This document shows, one piece after another, positions 2,523 to 13,502 of a stretch of DNA of 20,961 nt. How positions within the stretch are numbered: position 1 is the stretch's first letter; each line of letters opens with the position of its first letter. The position numbers and the translations under genes were made by a program. Location: positions 1 through 20,961 of the IMG/VR virus record IMGVR_UViG_3300042392_000392; one strand, given 5' to 3'. Origin of the DNA: a virus. The notes under the pieces were generated by a model. That model saw only the letters and a list, made by a program, of their open reading frames with translations. It was not told where the DNA came from and ran no database searches.

Positions 2523-2631
2523 TAAATTTCCTTTCGTTGAGCAAGAGAATGAACTGTAAACGCTTTTTTTCAACAAAAACATAGGTGTTTACCCCTAGTG
2601 ACTTTTCACTTTTTTTTGTTAGGCTCACCGT
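2523..2631. promoter_or_regulatory. Divergent early control region
   Basis: This is the only gap from which transcription leaves in both directions: leftward to the recombination operon and rightward to the replication operon. It is AT-rich, with long T- and A-runs and the operator-like dyad at its centre. A second GTAAAC half-site at 2556-2561 is inverted relative to the GTTTAC at 2587-2592. A leftward -35-like TTGAAA lies at about 2566-2571, but no convincing -10 can be named for either side. Promoter activity is inferred from gene orientation. Confidence 0.6.
2582..2597. promoter_or_regulatory. Operator-like dyad, copy 1
   Basis: TAGGTGTTTACCCCTA is an imperfect inverted repeat and one of about seven related sites in the window. 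Its first 13 bases are identical to the copy at 11147-11162. It lies midway between two divergent operons, where one bound protein could control both. Confidence 0.6.
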
Positions 2632-3051: not shown

Positions 3052-3780
3052 ATGCACTACTACCAGTTTCATATTGGCGACTACGCTAGTCACACTCGTC
3101 ATCTTTCCTTGATCGAAGACATTGCTTACCGTAGGCTTCTGGACTTCTATTACCTCCATGAACAACCTATCAGACAGAGAGACATTGCTCGTCAGATAGG
3201 CATGAGAGATCAAGAGCAGGACGTTCTTACGGTCCTTAATGAGTTCTTTGTCTCCACTGATGCTGGCTTTGTTTCTCCAAGGGCAGACAAAGAAATACAA
3301 CATTACCACTCAAAAGTTGAGCAAGCGTCTAAGGCCGGTAAAGCATCCGCTGAACGCAGGTCCAACGTCCGTTCAACGGATGTTCAACCAACCAATAACC
3401 ATAAACCAATAACCATAAACCAAGAACCAATAACCAATAACCATAAACCAAAGAGAGAGAGCGCAACTTGCGTTGCTTGCCCTCTTGATGTTTCTGAACA
3501 GGTTTGGCAAGACTGGCTGGCACTCCGCAAATCAAAGAAGGCTGCTGTCACTGCAACCGTTCTTGAAGGTGCTAGGAAAGAAGCGTTCAAGCTTGATTGG
3601 CCATTGGAGAAGTTTTTAGCTGAATGGTGTACCCGTGGAAGCCAAGGCCTGAAGGCTGAATGGGTAAAGCCAGACCAACAAAGCATGAGCAAAACTGGCC
3701 TGATGAATCAGAAGGTGATTTCAGGTCTTACCCGTGGTCTTATTGGAGGTGACAACAATGTCCAACTACTTGGAAACTGA
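3052..3780 (+). CDS. DUF1376 replication initiator-like protein
   Basis: A 242-residue protein. The N-terminal ~90 residues match DUF1376 (YdaU-like): MHYYQFHIGDYASHTRHLSL, then AYRRLLDFYYLHEQP, and a winged-helix-like part (RQRDIARQIGM) ending near ADKEIQHYHSK. These proteins occupy the place of lambda O in many prophages and are thought to start replication. Residues about 113-134 are an Asn/Pro/Thr linker encoded by a 7-bp DNA repeat array. The C-terminal domain holds SEQVWQDWLALRKSKKAAVT and a KLDWPLEKFLAEWCTRGSQGLKAEWV segment typical of replication-protein C-termini. The ribosome site GGAG is 8 bases upstream. The next gene overlaps its end and may encode the helicase-loading partner. 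Confidence 0.82.
   Translation: MHYYQFHIGDYASHTRHLSLIEDIAYRRLLDFYYLHEQPIRQRDIARQIGMRDQEQDVLTVLNEFFVSTDAGFVSPRADKEIQHYHSKVEQASKAGKASAERRSNVRSTDVQPTNNHKPITINQEPITNNHKPKRESATCVACPLDVSEQVWQDWLALRKSKKAAVTATVLEGARKEAFKLDWPLEKFLAEWCTRGSQGLKAEWVKPDQQSMSKTGLMNQKVISGLTRGLIGGDNNVQLLGN
3390..3452 (+). repeat. Nine tandem 7-bp repeats inside the initiator-like gene
   Basis: Nine consecutive 7-bp units of the form AACCAWW (AACCAAT, AACCATA, AACCAAG, AACCAAA) fill exactly 63 bp. Because 7 is not a multiple of 3, the encoded peptide repeats every seven residues (PTNNHKP, ITINQEP, ITNNHKP). AT-rich tandem units within an initiator gene recall the lambda origin inside gene O. It could also be only a flexible linker that expands by slippage. 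Confidence 0.8.
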
Positions 3781-4438: not shown

Positions 4439-4867
4439 ATGACTTTTTGTGTGACGTTCCAAGTTGAAGCAACACCCGTAGGCAAAGGTAGGCCCAAGTT
4501 CGCCAGGAGAGGAAACTTTGTTTCTGCTTACACCCCTACCAAAACCCGAGACTACGAAGATCTGATTCGAGATGCTGCCAAACAAGCAATGGGAAGCTCT
4601 GTTCCGCTAAAAACGGCTGTAGCGGCTTATATCTACATCACAGTACCTATCCCTCAGTCTTACTCAAAGAGGCGCTTTAAGGACTGTTTAGAGGGCTTGG
4701 AGAGGCCATGCAAGAAGCCAGACATCGACAACATCATAAAAGCCTACTTAGATGCCATGAATGACATCGTTTATGACGATGACACCCAGGTTGTTTCCTT
4801 GCACAGCACAAAGGTTTATGGGACGGTGGGTCTGGTTGAAGTGTTGGTTAAAGAAGACATTGACTAA
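4439..4867 (+). CDS. rusA: RusA-family Holliday junction resolvase
   Basis: A 142-residue protein with clear RusA features. The early KGRPK (16-20) is a family hallmark. The catalytic stretch KPDIDNIIKAYLDAMNDIVY (93-112) supplies Asp95, Asp97 and Lys101, and the following DDDTQV supplies Asp114, matching the essential Asp/Asp/Lys/Asp set of E. coli RusA. The enzyme cuts four-way DNA junctions as a dimer; in phages it resolves recombination intermediates and debranches DNA before packaging. GGAG is 7 bases upstream of the ATG. It complements the ERF annealing protein encoded across the divergent promoter. Length is close to the usual ~120-140 residues. Confidence 0.9.
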   Translation: MTFCVTFQVEATPVGKGRPKFARRGNFVSAYTPTKTRDYEDLIRDAAKQAMGSSVPLKTAVAAYIYITVPIPQSYSKRRFKDCLEGLERPCKKPDIDNIIKAYLDAMNDIVYDDDTQVVSLHSTKVYGTVGLVEVLVKEDID

Positions 4868-4937
4868 GGGTAAGTCCCTATACAAAAACAAATAAACCAA
4901 ATGCAGAATTGGTTTTCCAATTAACAACTCAATTGAT

Positions 4938-5398: not shown

Positions 5399-6105
5399 CG
5401 ACGCAATTGGTTCGAGACTCCATGAAGCTGATGTCTGATGCTGGCGTAGATATTGTGGACATCAAGTGGTTCGACCTGACTGGAGCATTCTCAGAGCATA
5501 AACATGCCAACCTTGAGCCTGTGATGACGCATCGCCCACCATTTGACAAATGCTTTGTCACTTGGAGGGGAAAGACTCGCAGCCACCCGAGCTACGAGGT
5601 CTTGATGTTGGTAGCTGGGACAGAGCCAGACGAGGGCATCACTGTGTCAATGTGGAAGGGGCCAAGCGGTACAAGGTTACGCCCCATCCCCGCGATGTTT
5701 TACTTCATAGAGGATAACAATATCCGTTATGGCGCAGTCAGTGATGAAGAGCCTGTAGACAAGGAGTTGGCAGAGATCATGCTGGCGCAGATTGGGGTTT
5801 GGTACAGCGCCATGGATGAGCGCATTGAGGCTTACATTCCATCGGTCCGAGATACCTTCACAAATCGACGCAAGGTACAGCAGGGCAAGCTGCCGACCTA
5901 CGACTGGACAACGGTTTGGATTGAGCCAGCCAAGCCCCGCCAAGACCCCAAAGGGGGCACACACGCATCACCCCGCCTGCACGACCGCCGTGGTCATTTG
6001 AGGCGGCTTGCAAGCGGAAAGAATGTTTGGGTCAAGTCCTGCAAAGTGGGTGACGCCAGCAAAGGTGTGATATTTCACGACTACGCCATCAAGGAGAACG
6101 CATGA
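5395..6105 (+). CDS. Conserved phage protein with C-terminal RRGH motif
   Basis: A 236-residue protein starting at ATG 5395 (GAGGGAGA upstream, ATGA overlap); the in-frame ATG at 5365 would overlap the previous gene further. The first ~150 residues are globular with no motif I can name (DIVDIKWFDLTG, MTHRPPFDKCFVTW, LRPIPAMFYFIEDN). The end holds a compact motif, GGTHASPRLHDRRGHLRRL, followed by SGKNVWVKSCKVGDASKGVIFHDY. I recall this His/Arg-rich ending (HxxPRxHxRRGHxR...VxxxxVG) from many phage and mobile-element proteins, at the C-terminus of otherwise unlike proteins; its function is unknown. The motif's His and Arg residues could contact nucleic acid or form an active site. ATGA overlap with the next gene. 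Confidence 0.65.
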   Translation: MTTQLVRDSMKLMSDAGVDIVDIKWFDLTGAFSEHKHANLEPVMTHRPPFDKCFVTWRGKTRSHPSYEVLMLVAGTEPDEGITVSMWKGPSGTRLRPIPAMFYFIEDNNIRYGAVSDEEPVDKELAEIMLAQIGVWYSAMDERIEAYIPSVRDTFTNRRKVQQGKLPTYDWTTVWIEPAKPRQDPKGGTHASPRLHDRRGHLRRLASGKNVWVKSCKVGDASKGVIFHDYAIKENA

Positions 6106-6605
6106 CCAAAGACGAAGCACTCGACTTGGCGCTGGAGACGTTGAGATCAGCGGCAGGTGAACTATACAGAGTCACCTCGTACTGCGATACATATGACGCA
6201 CTTGCCAAAACAAACAATGCAATTATTGATATTCAGCAAGCCCGTTCAGCACCTGTGCAGAAACGCCCACAGAACTGCGGAACAGGCTATTGCAGTTGCG
6301 TTGAATGCGTGATGGAGCCAGCACCTGTGCAGGAGCCTATTGGCTACTTGTTCCAGCATGAAGAAAATGGACTGACTATGGTTTTCGATGTTCAGCAGGT
6401 TGAGTGGGGTTTTAAAAAGAACAACCCACGGCATCAAAAGATTGGCCCCGTCTACACCACCCCACCCGCAGCACAGCGGCAATGGGTTGGGCTGACGGAT
6501 GAGGAGATCGAAAAAGCCTGTGTTCCGCTTGGTGCGGCAATGCTGTCTTTTACAGAAGTCGCCCGAGCCATCGAAGCCAAATTAAGGAGCAAGAACAATG
6601 GATGA
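6102..6605 (+). CDS. Ea22-like modular repeat protein 1
   Basis: A 167-residue mosaic. The N-terminus (DEALDLALETLRSAAGELYR) is a helical segment. The middle is a Cys-rich insert (NCGTGYCSCVECVME) flanked by APVQ units, then EPIGYLFQHEENG..., closed by VYTTPPAAQ. The C-terminus RQWVGLTDEEIEKACVPLG...ARAIEAKLRSKN is a unit often seen at the end of such proteins. The EPVAW...PLYTTPP layout recalls the lambda ea22-type early proteins, whose function is unknown. Its APVQEP coding DNA is nearly identical to copies in the gene at 6693, including a 69-bp block. Joined to the previous gene by ATGA and overlapped by the small membrane-protein gene at 6598. Confidence 0.6.
   Translation: MTKDEALDLALETLRSAAGELYRVTSYCDTYDALAKTNNAIIDIQQARSAPVQKRPQNCGTGYCSCVECVMEPAPVQEPIGYLFQHEENGLTMVFDVQQVEWGFKKNNPRHQKIGPVYTTPPAAQRQWVGLTDEEIEKACVPLGAAMLSFTEVARAIEAKLRSKNNG
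6270..6338 (+). repeat. 69-bp duplicated block, copy A
   Basis: Encodes NCGTGYCSCVECVMEPAPVQ and matches the block at 6954-7022 at 63 of 69 positions by eye; the last 42 bases are identical. The two lie in different genes, so this is a recent duplication or gene-conversion tract. Confidence 0.8.
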
Positions 6606-6696
6606 ATGGACTTTAATTTTGTGTTTTCTGTCTGGGATGTTTGTTGGGCAACACATAACAATTTCATACATCCGAGCCAGAGGAGGAGCCAAATGA
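6598..6696 (+). CDS. 32-aa single-pass membrane protein
   Basis: A 32-codon ORF between the two repeat-protein genes. AAGGAG lies nine bases upstream of the ATG at 6598, and the TGA at 6694-6696 overlaps the next ATG as ATGA. The product starts MDEWTLILCFLSGMFVGQHI and ends with a basic tail (SYIRARGGAK), a classic short helix with positive charges at the C-terminal side, so the N-terminus probably faces out. It overlaps the end of the upstream gene by 8 bases. Function unknown; many phages encode such small membrane proteins (superinfection exclusion, lysis inhibition), but nothing here distinguishes these. Confidence 0.6.
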   Translation: MDEWTLILCFLSGMFVGQHITISYIRARGGAK

Positions 6697-7457
6697 GAGA
6701 CACGATAGACATGGCCCGTGAGGCTGGCTACGGCGAACACTTGTCGATGCTTCATGCGGTTGCGCTAAACCGCTTTGCTGAACTTGTTCGTGCTGATGAG
6801 CGTGCCCTTGCAGCACCTGTGCAGGAGCCTGTAGCAGAGTATCGCGGCGTTACCAATGATGGTCACTACATCATTAAGCCAATGCAGCCACTCAAAATCG
6901 GCGCACTGTTTTGCGCCACCCCACCCGCAGCACAGCCAGCACAAAAGAAACCGCAGAATTGCGGCACAAGCTATTGCTCATGCGTTGAATGCGTGATGGA
7001 GCCAGCACCTGTGCAGGAGCCTGTGGCGTGGCTTTATAAGGGTGATGCGGAGTTTGATGGTAAAGAATGGCGCGACAATATTCGTGTTACTACATCAAAG
7101 CAAGTTGCTGATTGGCAGGGGAAAGACATTCAACCCCTCTACACCACCCCACCCGCGCAGCCAGCGCCCGTGTGCATTGGATGGGATACCAAGGCCGACA
7201 CACCAATCATAGGGTACACCACCCCACCCACATCACCTGTGCAGGAGCCTGTGGCGTGGCTTGTTGAATTTGAAAACGGAGAACAAGAATTACATTTTGA
7301 CGAGCAATCGGTCGGTGAAATTCATACGCCCCTTTACACCACCCCACCCGCACAGCCAGCACCTGTGCAGGAATTGACCAACATTCAGCGCCACGAGCAA
7401 AACGTGGAGAAGTTTTTGGCAGCACGGCCAACACCTGTGCAGGAGAAGAACACATGA
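6693..7457 (+). CDS. Ea22-like modular repeat protein 2
   Basis: A 254-residue protein. I start it at ATG 6693, which has a strong AGGAGGAG site and the ATGA overlap, not at 6606 (out of the small gene's frame and without a ribosome site). After an N-terminal helix (TIDMAREAGYGEHLSMLHAV) come tandem modules: APVQEPVAEYRG...ATPPAAQ; a Cys-rich insert with NCGTSYCSCVECVME; APVQEPVAWLYKG...QPLYTTPPAQPAPV; SPVQEPVAWLVEF...TPLYTTPPAQPAPVQE; and an ending with PTPVQEKNT. Each module has a unique body between near-identical joints. The general EPVAW/PLYT pattern is known from phage ea22-like proteins of unknown function. The last repeat also provides the AGGAG ribosome site of the next gene. Confidence 0.6.
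   Translation: MRDTIDMAREAGYGEHLSMLHAVALNRFAELVRADERALAAPVQEPVAEYRGVTNDGHYIIKPMQPLKIGALFCATPPAAQPAQKKPQNCGTSYCSCVECVMEPAPVQEPVAWLYKGDAEFDGKEWRDNIRVTTSKQVADWQGKDIQPLYTTPPAQPAPVCIGWDTKADTPIIGYTTPPTSPVQEPVAWLVEFENGEQELHFDEQSVGEIHTPLYTTPPAQPAPVQELTNIQRHEQNVEKFLAARPTPVQEKNT
6954..7022 (+). repeat. 69-bp duplicated block, copy B
   Basis: Second copy of the block at 6270-6338, here inside the gene at 6693. Six mismatches, all in the first 27 bases; the remaining 42 bases are identical to copy A. Confidence 0.8.
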
Positions 7458-9530: not shown

Positions 9531-9548
9531 CCTGTTTTGATCCCCCGA

Positions 9549-9565
9549 TTAGGGTTTACCCTTAG
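9549..9565. promoter_or_regulatory. Operator-like dyad, copy 2
   Basis: TTAGGGTTTACCCTTAG contains the full GGGTTTACCC core. It is the only copy not near a gene start; it lies between two converging operons. Confidence 0.6.
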
Positions 9566-9621
9566 TTTTGCGGAGTGGGCGCTCACTTCACCTGAAAACC
9601 CAGCAGCGCATGAGACACTAG

Positions 9622-9643
9622 CGACAATGCCCCGACAATGCCC
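9622..9643 (+). repeat. 11-bp perfect tandem repeat
   Basis: CGACAATGCCC occurs twice without a gap (9622-9632 and 9633-9643), immediately upstream of a bidirectional hairpin. Confidence 0.8.
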
Positions 9644-9645
9644 TT

Positions 9646-9670
9646 AAAAAGCCCTTGTAGGCCTCTTTTT
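9646..9670. terminator. Possible bidirectional terminator
   Basis: AAAAA-GCC, a CTTGTA loop, GGC, a CTC bulge and TTTTT form a short hairpin bounded by A- and T-runs, so each strand has a stem followed by Ts. It suits a gap between converging operons. The GC stem is only 3 bp. Confidence 0.4.
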
Positions 9671-9768
9671 GTGCTGGTGCATACCTACTATGCCAAAACC
9701 CAGAAAATCGATTGTAGGTCCGTTAAATCGATGCGCTTGGAGTGAGTGCTTACTAACTTAACAACCCC

Positions 9769-10763: not shown

Positions 10764-10859
10764 TTACTTTACAAGAATGTCAAAGTAAGAGAGGGCCAAA
10801 ACGCAAAGGATCAAGCCCAATGCAATGGCCGTGAGGATATCTTTGATCTTGTCATTCAT
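10764..10859 (-). CDS. 31-aa single-pass membrane protein
   Basis: A 31-residue protein, missed by usual length cutoffs. AGGAGA lies 7 bases upstream of the ATG at 10859, and its start overlaps the stop of the preceding gene by 8 bases. The charged N-terminus (MNDKIKD) is followed by an uninterrupted hydrophobic helix of about 20 residues (ILTAIALGLILCVLALSYF) and a short DILVK tail. This is a typical small phage inner-membrane protein. Role unknown; membrane takeover or exclusion functions are possible. Confidence 0.65.
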   Translation of the reverse strand: MNDKIKDILTAIALGLILCVLALSYFDILVK

Positions 10860-11058
10860 GAATGTCTCCTGAGTATGCGCGTTCTGCTTCCATTGACAGT
10901 GCTGTCAAGGTTTGCTTGTCAAGGATGCCTGAAACGTCAACCCCGTCAAACCAGACAGCCGTTAAACGATCAAGCCATGAAGGGATGGAGATGTCTAGCT
11001 CAACGTCAATGATGCCGCCATTGAGTAGGGTTGCATATCGGTGAATAGTGTCTTGCAT
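10852..11058 (-). CDS. 68-aa hypothetical protein
   Basis: First gene of the leftward cassette. The 68 residues contain a strand-rich middle (IIDVELDISIPSWLDRLTAV) and WFDGVDVSGILDKQTLTALS, then a helix MEAERAYSG. It resembles small phage proteins with a VxxGVDVTxxL motif, which have no known function. A perfect TTGACA lies on the minus strand at 11135-11130, about 70 bases upstream of the ATG, with only a poor -10, and an operator-like dyad lies directly upstream of that. The ribosome site is weak (AAGGCAGC). The stop is overlapped by the membrane-protein start. Confidence 0.6.
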   Translation of the reverse strand: MQDTIHRYATLLNGGIIDVELDISIPSWLDRLTAVWFDGVDVSGILDKQTLTALSMEAERAYSGDIHE

Positions 11059-11146
11059 GATGCTGCCTTTAAAGTTTCGTTAGTTGCAGTGATCAAAGCA
11101 TTGCGCCTTGATGTATCAATTATCGGGTCTGTCAACCATAAATCTA

Positions 11147-11162
11147 TAGGTGTTTACCCTAA
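11147..11162. promoter_or_regulatory. Operator-like dyad, copy 3
   Basis: TAGGTGTTTACCCTAA shares its first 13 bases with the copy at 2582. A second GTTTAC follows at 11163-11168. It lies 12 bases upstream of the leftward TTGACA box, the place for a regulator of the counter-oriented cassette. Confidence 0.6.
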
Positions 11163-11393
11163 GTTTACGATTGATTTTGTAGCTACAGTAGGAATCCCGA
11201 AACACCAACAACCCAAAGCCATGGGCATCTATTCATGTAGGGATAGATACAAGGATAGATAGAGGGTCTACAGAGGGAGAGCATAGAGGGAGAGTAAGGA
11301 TTCCAGCGCATAGACATACATCAGCAAAGAAACCATTAGCAACCCCACGAACACCAACCAACCTAACTCCATCGCGCACCCGAGACCAATGCG

Positions 11394-11412
11394 AATGCGA
11401 ATCATTCTCATT
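11394..11412. promoter_or_regulatory. Fur-box-like dyad
   Basis: AATGCGAAT-C-ATTCTCATT is a 19-bp dyad with arms matching at 8 of 9 positions. The overlapping 11391-11409 matches 14 of 19 positions of the classical Fur consensus. It lies 12 bases before the first dyad of the operator cluster. Chance similarity remains possible. Confidence 0.4.
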
Positions 11413-11423
11413 TAGATTTGGCC

Positions 11424-11514
11424 TAGGGTTTACCCCTAAGGGTTTATACCTAGGGGTTTACCCTGGTACTGGATGGACGTACAGGACTGTGGATGCGTAC
11501 AGTAGGGTTTACCC
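11424..11514. promoter_or_regulatory. Cluster of four operator-like dyads upstream of terminase
   Basis: Four related sites lie in 91 bp: TAGGGTTTACCCCTA (11424-11438), AAGGGTTTATACCTAGG (11438-11454, with two extra bases), TAGGGGTTTACCCTGG (11451-11466) and TAGGGTTTACCC (11503-11514). The first three abut or overlap, as operator arrays or iterons do. The arms TAGGGT and ACCCTA are exact reverse complements. About 150 bp separate the cluster from the terminase start. Confidence 0.7.
11471..11502 (+). repeat. Direct repeat within the operator cluster
   Basis: GGATGGACGTACAG (11471-11484) is repeated as GGATGCGTACAG (11491-11502) with a 2-base deletion. The start-to-start distance is 20 bp, about two helical turns. 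It lies between the third and fourth dyads. Confidence 0.65.
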
Positions 11515-11665
11515 CCCCCTTGAGTAAAACAGGGGTGCGCTCTGGAACAGGTACATCTTCACAGATCAATCTACGAAATCAGCAACAAAACAAACCTCTT
11601 TCCAAAAAAAAATTTTATTTCAAAATGGGATTAGAATTTGTAGACACCAAATCAAAGGAGAGAAC

Positions 11666-12115
11666 ATGGCTGGATATCCTATGCGTAGGGCGTTGGAGAA
11701 GAAGATTGAGGAGATGGGGGGGATAGAGTTTGTATGTGCTCATGTAGCGCAGGGGATGACGCTTAATCGGTTGGCTGAGTTCATTGAGTGTTCTAGGCCT
11801 ATGCTTTCTTTTTGGATCAACCATACGGAAGAGCGCAGGGTTGCGGTGTTGAATGCTCGTAAGTTGAAGGCTGAGAAGTTGGCTGAAGAGGCTTTGGAGA
11901 TTGCTGACGAGGTGGATGAGAGCAGTAACTCGGGGGTTAATAAAGCGAGGCTCCAGGTGGATACTCGTAAGTGGTTAGCTGGTAAGCTGGACCCGGAGGC
12001 TTATGGGGATACTGCCAAGACCCAAGTGAATATCAGTATGGGTGATTTACACCTTCAGGCTTTGAAGCATATGGGTAAGGTTGAGGTGGTTACTACATTG
12101 GAAAACAATGAATAA
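11666..12115 (+). CDS. terS: Terminase small subunit (Sf6-like)
   Basis: A 149-residue protein with an N-terminal helix-turn-helix (HVAQGMTLNRLAEFIECSRP, then MLSFWINHTEER), a helical oligomerisation part LKAEKLAEEALEIADEVDES, and the well-conserved ARLQVDTRKWLAGKLDPEAYGD ending of Sf6-type small terminases. The subunit recognises the packaging site on phage DNA and feeds the motor subunit. AAAGGAG stands 7 bases before the ATG. Guanine-rich codons in the first part (GGGGGGATAG) suggest codon use unlike the early genes. The next gene overlaps its end by 8 bases. The repeat-rich DNA immediately upstream is a natural candidate for its binding site. Confidence 0.87.
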   Translation: MAGYPMRRALEKKIEEMGGIEFVCAHVAQGMTLNRLAEFIECSRPMLSFWINHTEERRVAVLNARKLKAEKLAEEALEIADEVDESSNSGVNKARLQVDTRKWLAGKLDPEAYGDTAKTQVNISMGDLHLQALKHMGKVEVVTTLENNE

Positions 12116-13502
12116 TCCATTTATTGAGTTTATTAAGCTCTACAGAAACGACCCCAATAAGTTTGTCAAAGAGGTTCTGGGGGTTGAGCCTGATGAATGG
12201 CAGCAGGACTTTCTGCAAGCGGTGGCAAGCGGAGAACGCAAAATCTCCATTCGTTCCGGTCACGGGGTGGGTAAATCAACTACCGCTTCTTGGGCCATGC
12301 TTTGGTTCTTGTTGACCAGATATCCCGTCAAGGTCGTGGTGACTGCCCCTACTTCTGCTCAACTGTATGACGCTTTGTTTGCTGAACTCAAGAGATGGGT
12401 TAAGGAACTACCCCAACCTGTCCAAGATCTTCTTGATGTCAAACAAGAACGGATTGAACTGAAGGCTTCTGCTACCGAGGCGTTTATCTCTGCCCGTACA
12501 TCCCGTGCTGAACAGCCCGAAGCTTTGCAGGGGGTTCACTCGGATAACGTCATGCTGGTGGCTGATGAGGCTTCTGGTGTGCCTGAGGCGGTGTTTGAGG
12601 CGGCTGCTGGCTCGATGTCTGGCCACAATGCTCTAACCATCCTCTTGGGTAACCCGGTCCGGTCTTCTGGCTTCTTCTTTGATACACACAACCGTCTAAA
12701 GGATGAGTGGTGGACCCGCCGTGTCTCTTGTATAGACAGCACCAGGGTGAGTAAAGAGTACGTTGATGACATGAAATCCCGGTACGGGGAGGAAAGTAAT
12801 GCCTTCCGGATCCGAGTATTGGGTGAGTTTCCCCGTAGTGATGACGATACGATCATTCCTATGGACCTGCTTGAATCTGCCAAACACCGAGATACCCGTG
12901 CTTACGAAGACGCTCCCATTGTTTGGGGGCTGGACGTTGCGCGGTTTGGTTCCGACTCGTCAGTTCTGTGTAAGCGTCAATCAAACGTGGTCCATACGCT
13001 AGAGCGTTGGAGGAATTTGGACTTGATGCAGCTAACGGGTGCGGTGGTTTCTCAGTACGAAGCTTGTGACCACAAGAGCCGTCCGACTGAAATCCTGGTT
13101 GACAGTATCGGTTTGGGGGCTGGTGTGGTGGATCGGTTGCGAGAGTTGAACCTTCCGGCTCGTGGGATTAACGTGTCTGAAAGTCCGGCAATGGGCGGGA
13201 CGTATTTGAACTTGAGGGCTGAGTTGTGGCACAAAGCAAAGGCTTGGCTTGAGAAGCGGGACTGCAAGATTCCGAATAACGAGGATTTGATTGGTGAATT
13301 AGCAACCGTAAGGTATACATTTACCTCTAACGGCAAGATTAAGATTGAATCCAAGGATGATATTCGGCGCAGGGGTTTGAAGTCGCCTGACATGGCTGAT
13401 GCTTTTGTCTTGACATTCGCCTCAGATGCGGCCACTATCTCTTGGGGAAAGAGCAGTTCGTGGGGTAAGCCGATCAAAAGGCTGATCCGTGGATTGGTCT
13501 GA
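12108..13502 (+). CDS. terL: Terminase large subunit (packaging ATPase/nuclease)
   Basis: A 464-residue protein starting at ATG 12108 (GGAAAA upstream, 8-base overlap with the small subunit); the ORF extends to 12081 but that part is the shadow of the upstream gene. ATPase: Walker A SGHGVGKST (50-58), Walker B VMLVADEAS (148-156, Asp153-Glu154), coupling motif LLGNP (179-183). Nuclease (RNase H fold): GLDVARFGSD with Asp276, VDSIGLG with Asp332, and SPDMADA with Asp428/Asp431. All expected catalytic acids are present, so it should be active. It drives DNA into the prohead at the portal and cuts the concatemer. A strong terminator lies 20 bases after the stop. Confidence 0.95.
   Translation: MNNPFIEFIKLYRNDPNKFVKEVLGVEPDEWQQDFLQAVASGERKISIRSGHGVGKSTTASWAMLWFLLTRYPVKVVVTAPTSAQLYDALFAELKRWVKELPQPVQDLLDVKQERIELKASATEAFISARTSRAEQPEALQGVHSDNVMLVADEASGVPEAVFEAAAGSMSGHNALTILLGNPVRSSGFFFDTHNRLKDEWWTRRVSCIDSTRVSKEYVDDMKSRYGEESNAFRIRVLGEFPRSDDDTIIPMDLLESAKHRDTRAYEDAPIVWGLDVARFGSDSSVLCKRQSNVVHTLERWRNLDLMQLTGAVVSQYEACDHKSRPTEILVDSIGLGAGVVDRLRELNLPARGINVSESPAMGGTYLNLRAELWHKAKAWLEKRDCKIPNNEDLIGELATVRYTFTSNGKIKIESKDDIRRRGLKSPDMADAFVLTFASDAATISWGKSSSWGKPIKRLIRGLV

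Follow-up and report, generated by a model that had tools for sequence, protein, structure and literature searches.

The window, by which the whole stretch of DNA analysed is meant, is a 20,961-bp fragment of a freshwater phage in which the rightward late genes open with the small terminase gene terS at 11666, followed by the large terminase gene terL and the portal gene. A dense, operator-like array of palindromes occupies positions 11394 to 11517, between a short leftward ORF and terS, and a gene of the GP88 family also lies leftward of it. The array units, the constant elements that follow them, and the terminase genes are as follows.

11394 to 11412, no strand assigned: F, the Fur-box-like palindrome AATGCGAATCATTCTCATT in the first array slot, with one mismatch to TGAGAATNATTCTCA
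11423 to 11438, plus strand: A1, CTAGGGTTTACCCCTA
11437 to 11452, plus strand: A2/B, TAAGGGTTTATACCTA, 14 bp past A1 and overlapping it by 2 bp
11451 to 11466, plus strand: A3, TAGGGGTTTACCCTGG, 14 bp past A2
11469 to 11484, no strand assigned: S1, CTGGATGGACGTACAG, a relaxed SOS/LexA-type site (CTGG-N8-ACAG)
11487 to 11502, no strand assigned: S2, CTGTGGATGCGTACAG, a strict SOS/LexA-type site (CTGT-N8-ACAG), 18 bp past S1
11502 to 11517, plus strand: A4, GTAGGGTTTACCCCCC, in relatives usually the final array unit
11512 to 11535, no strand assigned: C-run/G-run dyad CCCCCCCC-TTGAGTAAAACA-GGGG, a constant element 3' of the array
11604 to 11616, no strand assigned: A9T4 tract, a constant element of the array-terS interval
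11666 to 12115, plus strand: terS, small terminase (Sf6_terminase; PF20901, 1.3e-17; phrog_1482)
12096 to 13502, plus strand: terL, large terminase (phrog_2, 2.9e-50)

An earlier note on this DNA had reported three overlapping or abutting dyads at 11424-11466. These are present and more regular than was described: all three (11423-11466) are copies of a single 16-bp near-palindrome of the TAGGGGTTTACCCCTA type, tiled at 14 bp. The 12-14 bp direct repeat reported after them was also recovered, and resolves into two tandem CTG[T/G]-N8-ACAG palindromes of the SOS/LexA type, with TGGATG recurring at a spacing of 20 bp and GTACAG at 18 bp. The fourth dyad was located at 11502-11517, where it is a further copy of the 16-bp A palindrome and merges into the C-run/G-run dyad. 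The Fur-box-like palindrome begins at 11394, exactly where the earlier reader had started the element, and had been left unnamed. The array of the window phage thus contains one Fur-type site, two LexA-type sites, and four A-type palindromes. Matches to GGGTTTACCC with at most one mismatch numbered 8 in the window against 0.69 expected (shuffle maximum 4), and those to TAGGGGTTTACCC with at most three mismatches numbered 23 against 3.4 expected (shuffle maximum 7). The array region is flanked by two similar conserved motifs, GATTTTGTAGCTACA (11173-11187) on its left and GAATTTGTAGACA (11634-11646) immediately 5' of the terS ribosome site.

For comparison with relatives, 80 loci with a close terS were fetched, and sites were counted on 69 loci (the window and 68 relatives); the loci belong to related phages of common ancestry, and the counts are hence not of independent events. 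A comparable array lies 5' of terS in about 70 relatives, and where upstream sequence is present the 650 bp before terS are mostly composed of the same kinds of unit: A (GGGTTTACCC), SOS-type palindromes (37 of them strict), Fur-type sites, P (TATGC-N7-GCATA), Z (GTTAT-N5-ATAAC), and a TetR-type palindrome (GTTAGTGAGYRCTCACTAAC). Across the 69 loci, 160 copies of GGGTTTACCC fall within the 650 bp upstream of terS versus two in 228 kb downstream, and Fur sites of the AATGAGAATNATT type were found upstream of terS in 28 loci and nowhere in the same 228 kb. On the left the arrays are bordered by a conserved GCGC..TGAGAC mark and on the right by the constant GGGTTTACCCCCC, a G-run, and an AT tract. 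Within these borders the content varies: 45 distinct arrays were counted among the 53 that could be delimited, the usual order being one of Fur, P, or Z, then A and SOS units, then A-type units. Loci L010 and L015 are 98% identical in terS and 96% in the right flank, and the array is only 58% identical. Judged from this pair, array cassettes are exchanged faster than terS and the right flank change. L094:1-460 bears an array of A units where L091 bears a TetR-type array, and GGGGGGGAGGGGGTGTGTGTGG follows both. In some relatives (e.g. L007, L050, L051) an apparent coding insert separates the array from terS, and A sites lie about 850 bp upstream. Many records of cyanophages, pelagiphages, and Methylophilales phages resemble the segment L083:2210-2530 of another locus over short stretches of DNA (about 69-76%), and the matched part is annotated there as a structural protein or lies near ribonucleotide reductase.

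Rapid gain, loss, and swapping of units is also what would be expected of neutral or selfish palindromic mini-repeats, or of recombination linkers with no regulatory role. The units nevertheless keep an exact operator consensus and spacing, occupy a fixed place, and have almost no copies in coding regions, and this explanation is considered very improbable.

The spacing was examined for each known class of site. Upstream of terS, CTGT-N8-ACAG occurred 37 times versus once in total at spacers N5-N7 and N9-N11, and it did not occur downstream of terS. A flanking TA is conserved on either side of the SOS units; in the window, S2 has the strict core and S1 the relaxed core only. A CTGG half-site is present in almost half of these units, and the SOS core is not AT-rich. 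Fur-type sites were found at spacer N1 only and have the 7-1-7 inverted repeat of the TGAGAAT-N-ATTCTCA type, from which the window site TGCGAATCATTCTCA differs by one mismatch. NtrC units (TGCACCA-N3-TGGTGCA), often paired 40 bp apart, were found in related arrays and are absent from that of the window; in the array regions GCACC-N5-GGTGC was counted 21 times versus none at N2-N4 and N6-N8. As a control, TACTGT-N8-ACAGTA was located in betaproteobacterial genomes, where it adjoins genes whose translations read as RecA (L396, L399) or as UmuD-like (L397, L398). The name Tet was assigned to GTTAGTGAGYRCTCACTAAC before its neighbouring genes were examined. In bacterial genomes this palindrome adjoins TetR-type genes in most of the 19 matches examined, and PF00440 was found by Pfam in all 10 of the proteins encoded beside it that were submitted; these neighbours mark the genome matches as TetR operators rather than chance occurrences. 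Among 399 genomes of the order of the metagenome-assembled genome (MAG) G019, the palindrome was found at one mismatch or fewer in two genomes only, both times on phage-like contigs, and a related outer half-site accompanies some of the distant TetR homologues in these genomes, at no more than the level of shuffled sequence. It is well supported by these consensus and spacing results that the array units are putative operators of transcription regulators, with LexA and Fur consensus in the window.

A structural reading was also considered. As single-stranded DNA, 11394-11466 folds better than shuffled sequence (z -3.7), and the other parts of the array do not. A hairpin or RNA element was rejected: the half-sites of the Tet palindrome vary independently and without compensatory pairing, and no Rfam match was obtained in the window.

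The A unit is distributed more widely than the others, and the additional sites in the window are listed below.

2582 to 2597, plus strand: solitary A site TAGGTGTTTACCCCTA in the divergent early region
9549 to 9564, plus strand: A site TTAGGGTTTACCCTTA in a second intergenic cluster
9570 to 9589, no strand assigned: degenerate TetR-type palindrome GCGGAGTGGGCGCTCACTTC in the second cluster
9738 to 9757, no strand assigned: TetR-type palindrome TGGAGTGAGTGCTTACTAAC in the second cluster
11147 to 11162, plus strand: solitary A site TAGGTGTTTACCCTAA, some 90 bp 5' of the leftward gene at 10852-11058

Many relatives have an A-type site in a position resembling that at 11147, about 520-550 bp before terS. 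The second cluster, at 9540-9760 at the end of the early operon, comprises the A site, the two TetR-type palindromes, a GCGCATGAGACA mark, and terminator-like hairpins, and similar clusters are present in relatives G001, G002, G005, and G006. At 9686-9694 it also contains TACTATGCC, which fits TACTRTGMC, presumably the nick consensus of some LUZ24-like phages. A possible extra A site, TAGGGACTTACCCTTA, lies on the minus strand at 4865-4880 (13/16), from the end of a RusA-like gene into the intergenic gap. Elsewhere in the window, two ORFs at 6102-7457 encode repeated APVQEP and TTPPAAQ peptides, and parts of 6451-7032 show a 97% match to a Manatee Spring phage across about 200 bases.

Because A is also found in the divergent early region and elsewhere, this commonest unit may belong to a phage protein. 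The host-clade sample consisted of genomes of the order of G019, which was taken as betaproteobacterial and may not be the host clade of the phage; in it, A and P were not enriched and stood near chance level, and Z was not above its control. A rather improbable alternative built on the A unit is that a repressor or activator encoded by the phage binds the A palindromes and acts at early and late promoters, with the host-type sites as extra inputs. The chance-level frequency of A in the sampled genomes and its presence at 2582, at 9549, and at 11147 upstream of the leftward GP88 operon would agree with this. However, no HTH regulator was recognised among the scanned proteins of the window, which is a fragment, and from one relative to another an A array can take the place of a Tet array, as in L091 and L094.

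At least four lineages with different terminases have analogous arrays upstream of, or adjoining, the terminase genes. The TetR-type palindrome was present in at least 120 stretches among the viral-contig matches listed, and genomes totalling 257 Gb gave 33 matches to a slightly looser pattern. A second terminase lineage (L217 type) has 3-8 copies of the palindrome directly upstream of terS, and in G426, G444, and G420/G424 arrays adjoin terminase genes of other families; G421 is an exception, its array being near helicase/primase-type genes. The arrays of these unrelated phages contain TetR-type sites, paired NtrC sites (TGCACCA-N3-TGGTGCA), and Fur boxes, and in several lineages the array is followed by a G-rich stretch and an AT tract before the terminase. 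Fur-type sites in other lineages include, for example, AAATGAGAATGATTATCATTT. Array phages of different lineages have almost no proteins in common (BLASTP, 1e-6), on which ground a shared phage-encoded binder was rejected, with the proviso that a diverged small DNA-binding protein could escape at this threshold. No published description of such arrays was found in the open-access PMC papers covered.

One way in which such sites could serve a phage is as decoys that titrate host regulators and so derepress the SOS, iron, and nitrogen regulons for its benefit. Known operator classes in multi-copy arrays would suit this purpose, and no phage gene would be necessary. A decoy has no need, however, for a place upstream of terminase in unrelated phages, and only 1-3 sites of known class are present per genome in the family of the window phage; we regard this explanation as quite improbable.

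The earlier note had offered an origin or pac-type site, or a late-gene switch, and its general reading of a dense nucleoprotein-type site rather than a simple promoter agrees with the finding of no sigma-70-like promoter there. Of these options, the late-gene switch is the better supported and the origin has no support; the reading is thus supported in part, and the regulator-operator nature of the units had not been foreseen. For an origin with iteron-like repeats, direct tandem sites with an AT tract nearby and a GC skew that turns positive near 11000 could be cited. The inflection suggested as a check coincides with the switch in coding strand and lends no support to an origin, replication genes (O-like/primosomal) are at 3052, and the array units match regulator sites. 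No initiator gene or initiator-type iterons adjoin the array, the neighbours being terminase and GP88, and an origin is extremely improbable.

A packaging function would be an unlikely, though more substantial, explanation: the array, the C-run/G-run dyad, and the A-tract would form a pac or terminal-repeat site at which bound regulators position or pause the terminase. A place upstream of terminase is kept across unrelated lineages, several of which also have the G-rich stretch and AT tract 3' of the array. In the Sinorhizobium phage phiM5, the closest isolate by TerL (55% identical), a 357-bp terminal repeat ends just upstream of terL at a C-run/G-run dyad similar to that of the window, whereas no operator array was seen there by eye. 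Of 80 loci, 14 have a contig end within 0-500 bp upstream of terS, an enrichment over the level of about 2 per 250 bp elsewhere. These ends are scattered and not sharp, however, which array strain variation would also produce; sharp physical ends at the C/G dyad were rejected on this ground, and the scatter is what headful cutting, or assembly breaks where the sequence varies, could give. The window TerS is moreover of the Sf6 type (PF20901), and in Sf6-type terminases pac lies inside the terminase gene. Packaging could explain the position of the array and leaves the LexA, Fur, NtrC, and TetR consensus unexplained; the array may lie beside a packaging site, both readings then being true.

The preferred reading, to which we give an even chance, is that a modular array of predicted operators for dimeric regulators, several of them global regulators of the host, stands at the head of the late/packaging operon. 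As long as there are few phage genomes, the bound regulators would act as a nucleoprotein block against rightward late transcription. Replication would then titrate the regulators, LexA being removed also by RecA activation, and the late genes would come on. LexA, Fur, and TetR-type proteins are DNA-bound in undisturbed cells, and therefore what the modules have in common would be occupancy. For this reason the modules would be interchangeable: any abundant regulator could act as a brake, and modules could be swapped between phages. We infer that host proteins occupy the sites and that the array controls late transcription, the latter because its position where the packaging operon begins is conserved and because solitary A sites lie near other promoter regions; titration by copy number is hypothesized. 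Against this reading, no sigma-70 -35/-10 hexamers were found in 10900-11720, and NtrC as a rule activates transcription. The CTGG half-sites and the core of the SOS units also count against it, as do the frequencies of A, P, and Z and the rarity of the Tet palindrome in the sampled genomes of the order of G019. A scan of 12 array phages gave no phage integrase domain, and no relative of the window terS turned up in 84,980 species genomes, so these phages are probably virulent and lysogenic regulation is unlikely; the latter result also closed off host identification through a prophage.

A wider proposal, made tentatively, is that unrelated phages time the packaging operon with exchangeable host LexA, Fur, NtrC, and TetR operators used as titratable copy-number sensors, late genes starting only once genome copies outnumber the regulators. 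If so, a large group of uncultured freshwater phages would run their late genes via the host's own regulators, and iron, nitrogen, or DNA-damage status, or titration of the regulators by copy number, would time packaging and lysis. The regulator sites carried would provide a sequence-based clue to host range, and a modular, fast-evolving control region would join the known modes of phage late-transcription control.

Several known systems resemble parts of the array. The SOS (LexA) boxes of beta- and gammaproteobacteria share CTGT-N8-ACAG with flanking TA; the array versions differ in that they belong to a phage, stand in tandem among other operators upstream of terminase, and have a CTGG arm in almost half of cases. 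Bacillus phage GIL01, which is temperate and has a Gram-positive host, reportedly has LexA-controlled promoters and uses a phage-encoded LexA homologue; as there, host LexA would help to control phage genes, a prediction made here from the sites, whereas arrays of the window type combine and exchange several regulator types in phages without a recognisable integrase. The stx1 gene of Shiga-toxin phages is under Fur-box control and likewise has a host-type Fur site in a phage control region, but there the site serves a single prophage promoter, and here it is one member of a mixed packaging-operon array in phages that have no recognisable integrase. NtrC enhancer sites are paired, as at glnA, and the same consensus (TGCACCA-N3-TGGTGCA) occurs in pairs here, in the arrays of unrelated phages and not at host nitrogen genes. 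The TetR-family operator GTTAGTGAGYRCTCACTAAC, found at bacterial TetR genes, occurs here within phage arrays and not at TetR target genes. The recurrence of similar arrays at this place in unrelated phages suggests that many phages may link their late genes to regulators of the host.
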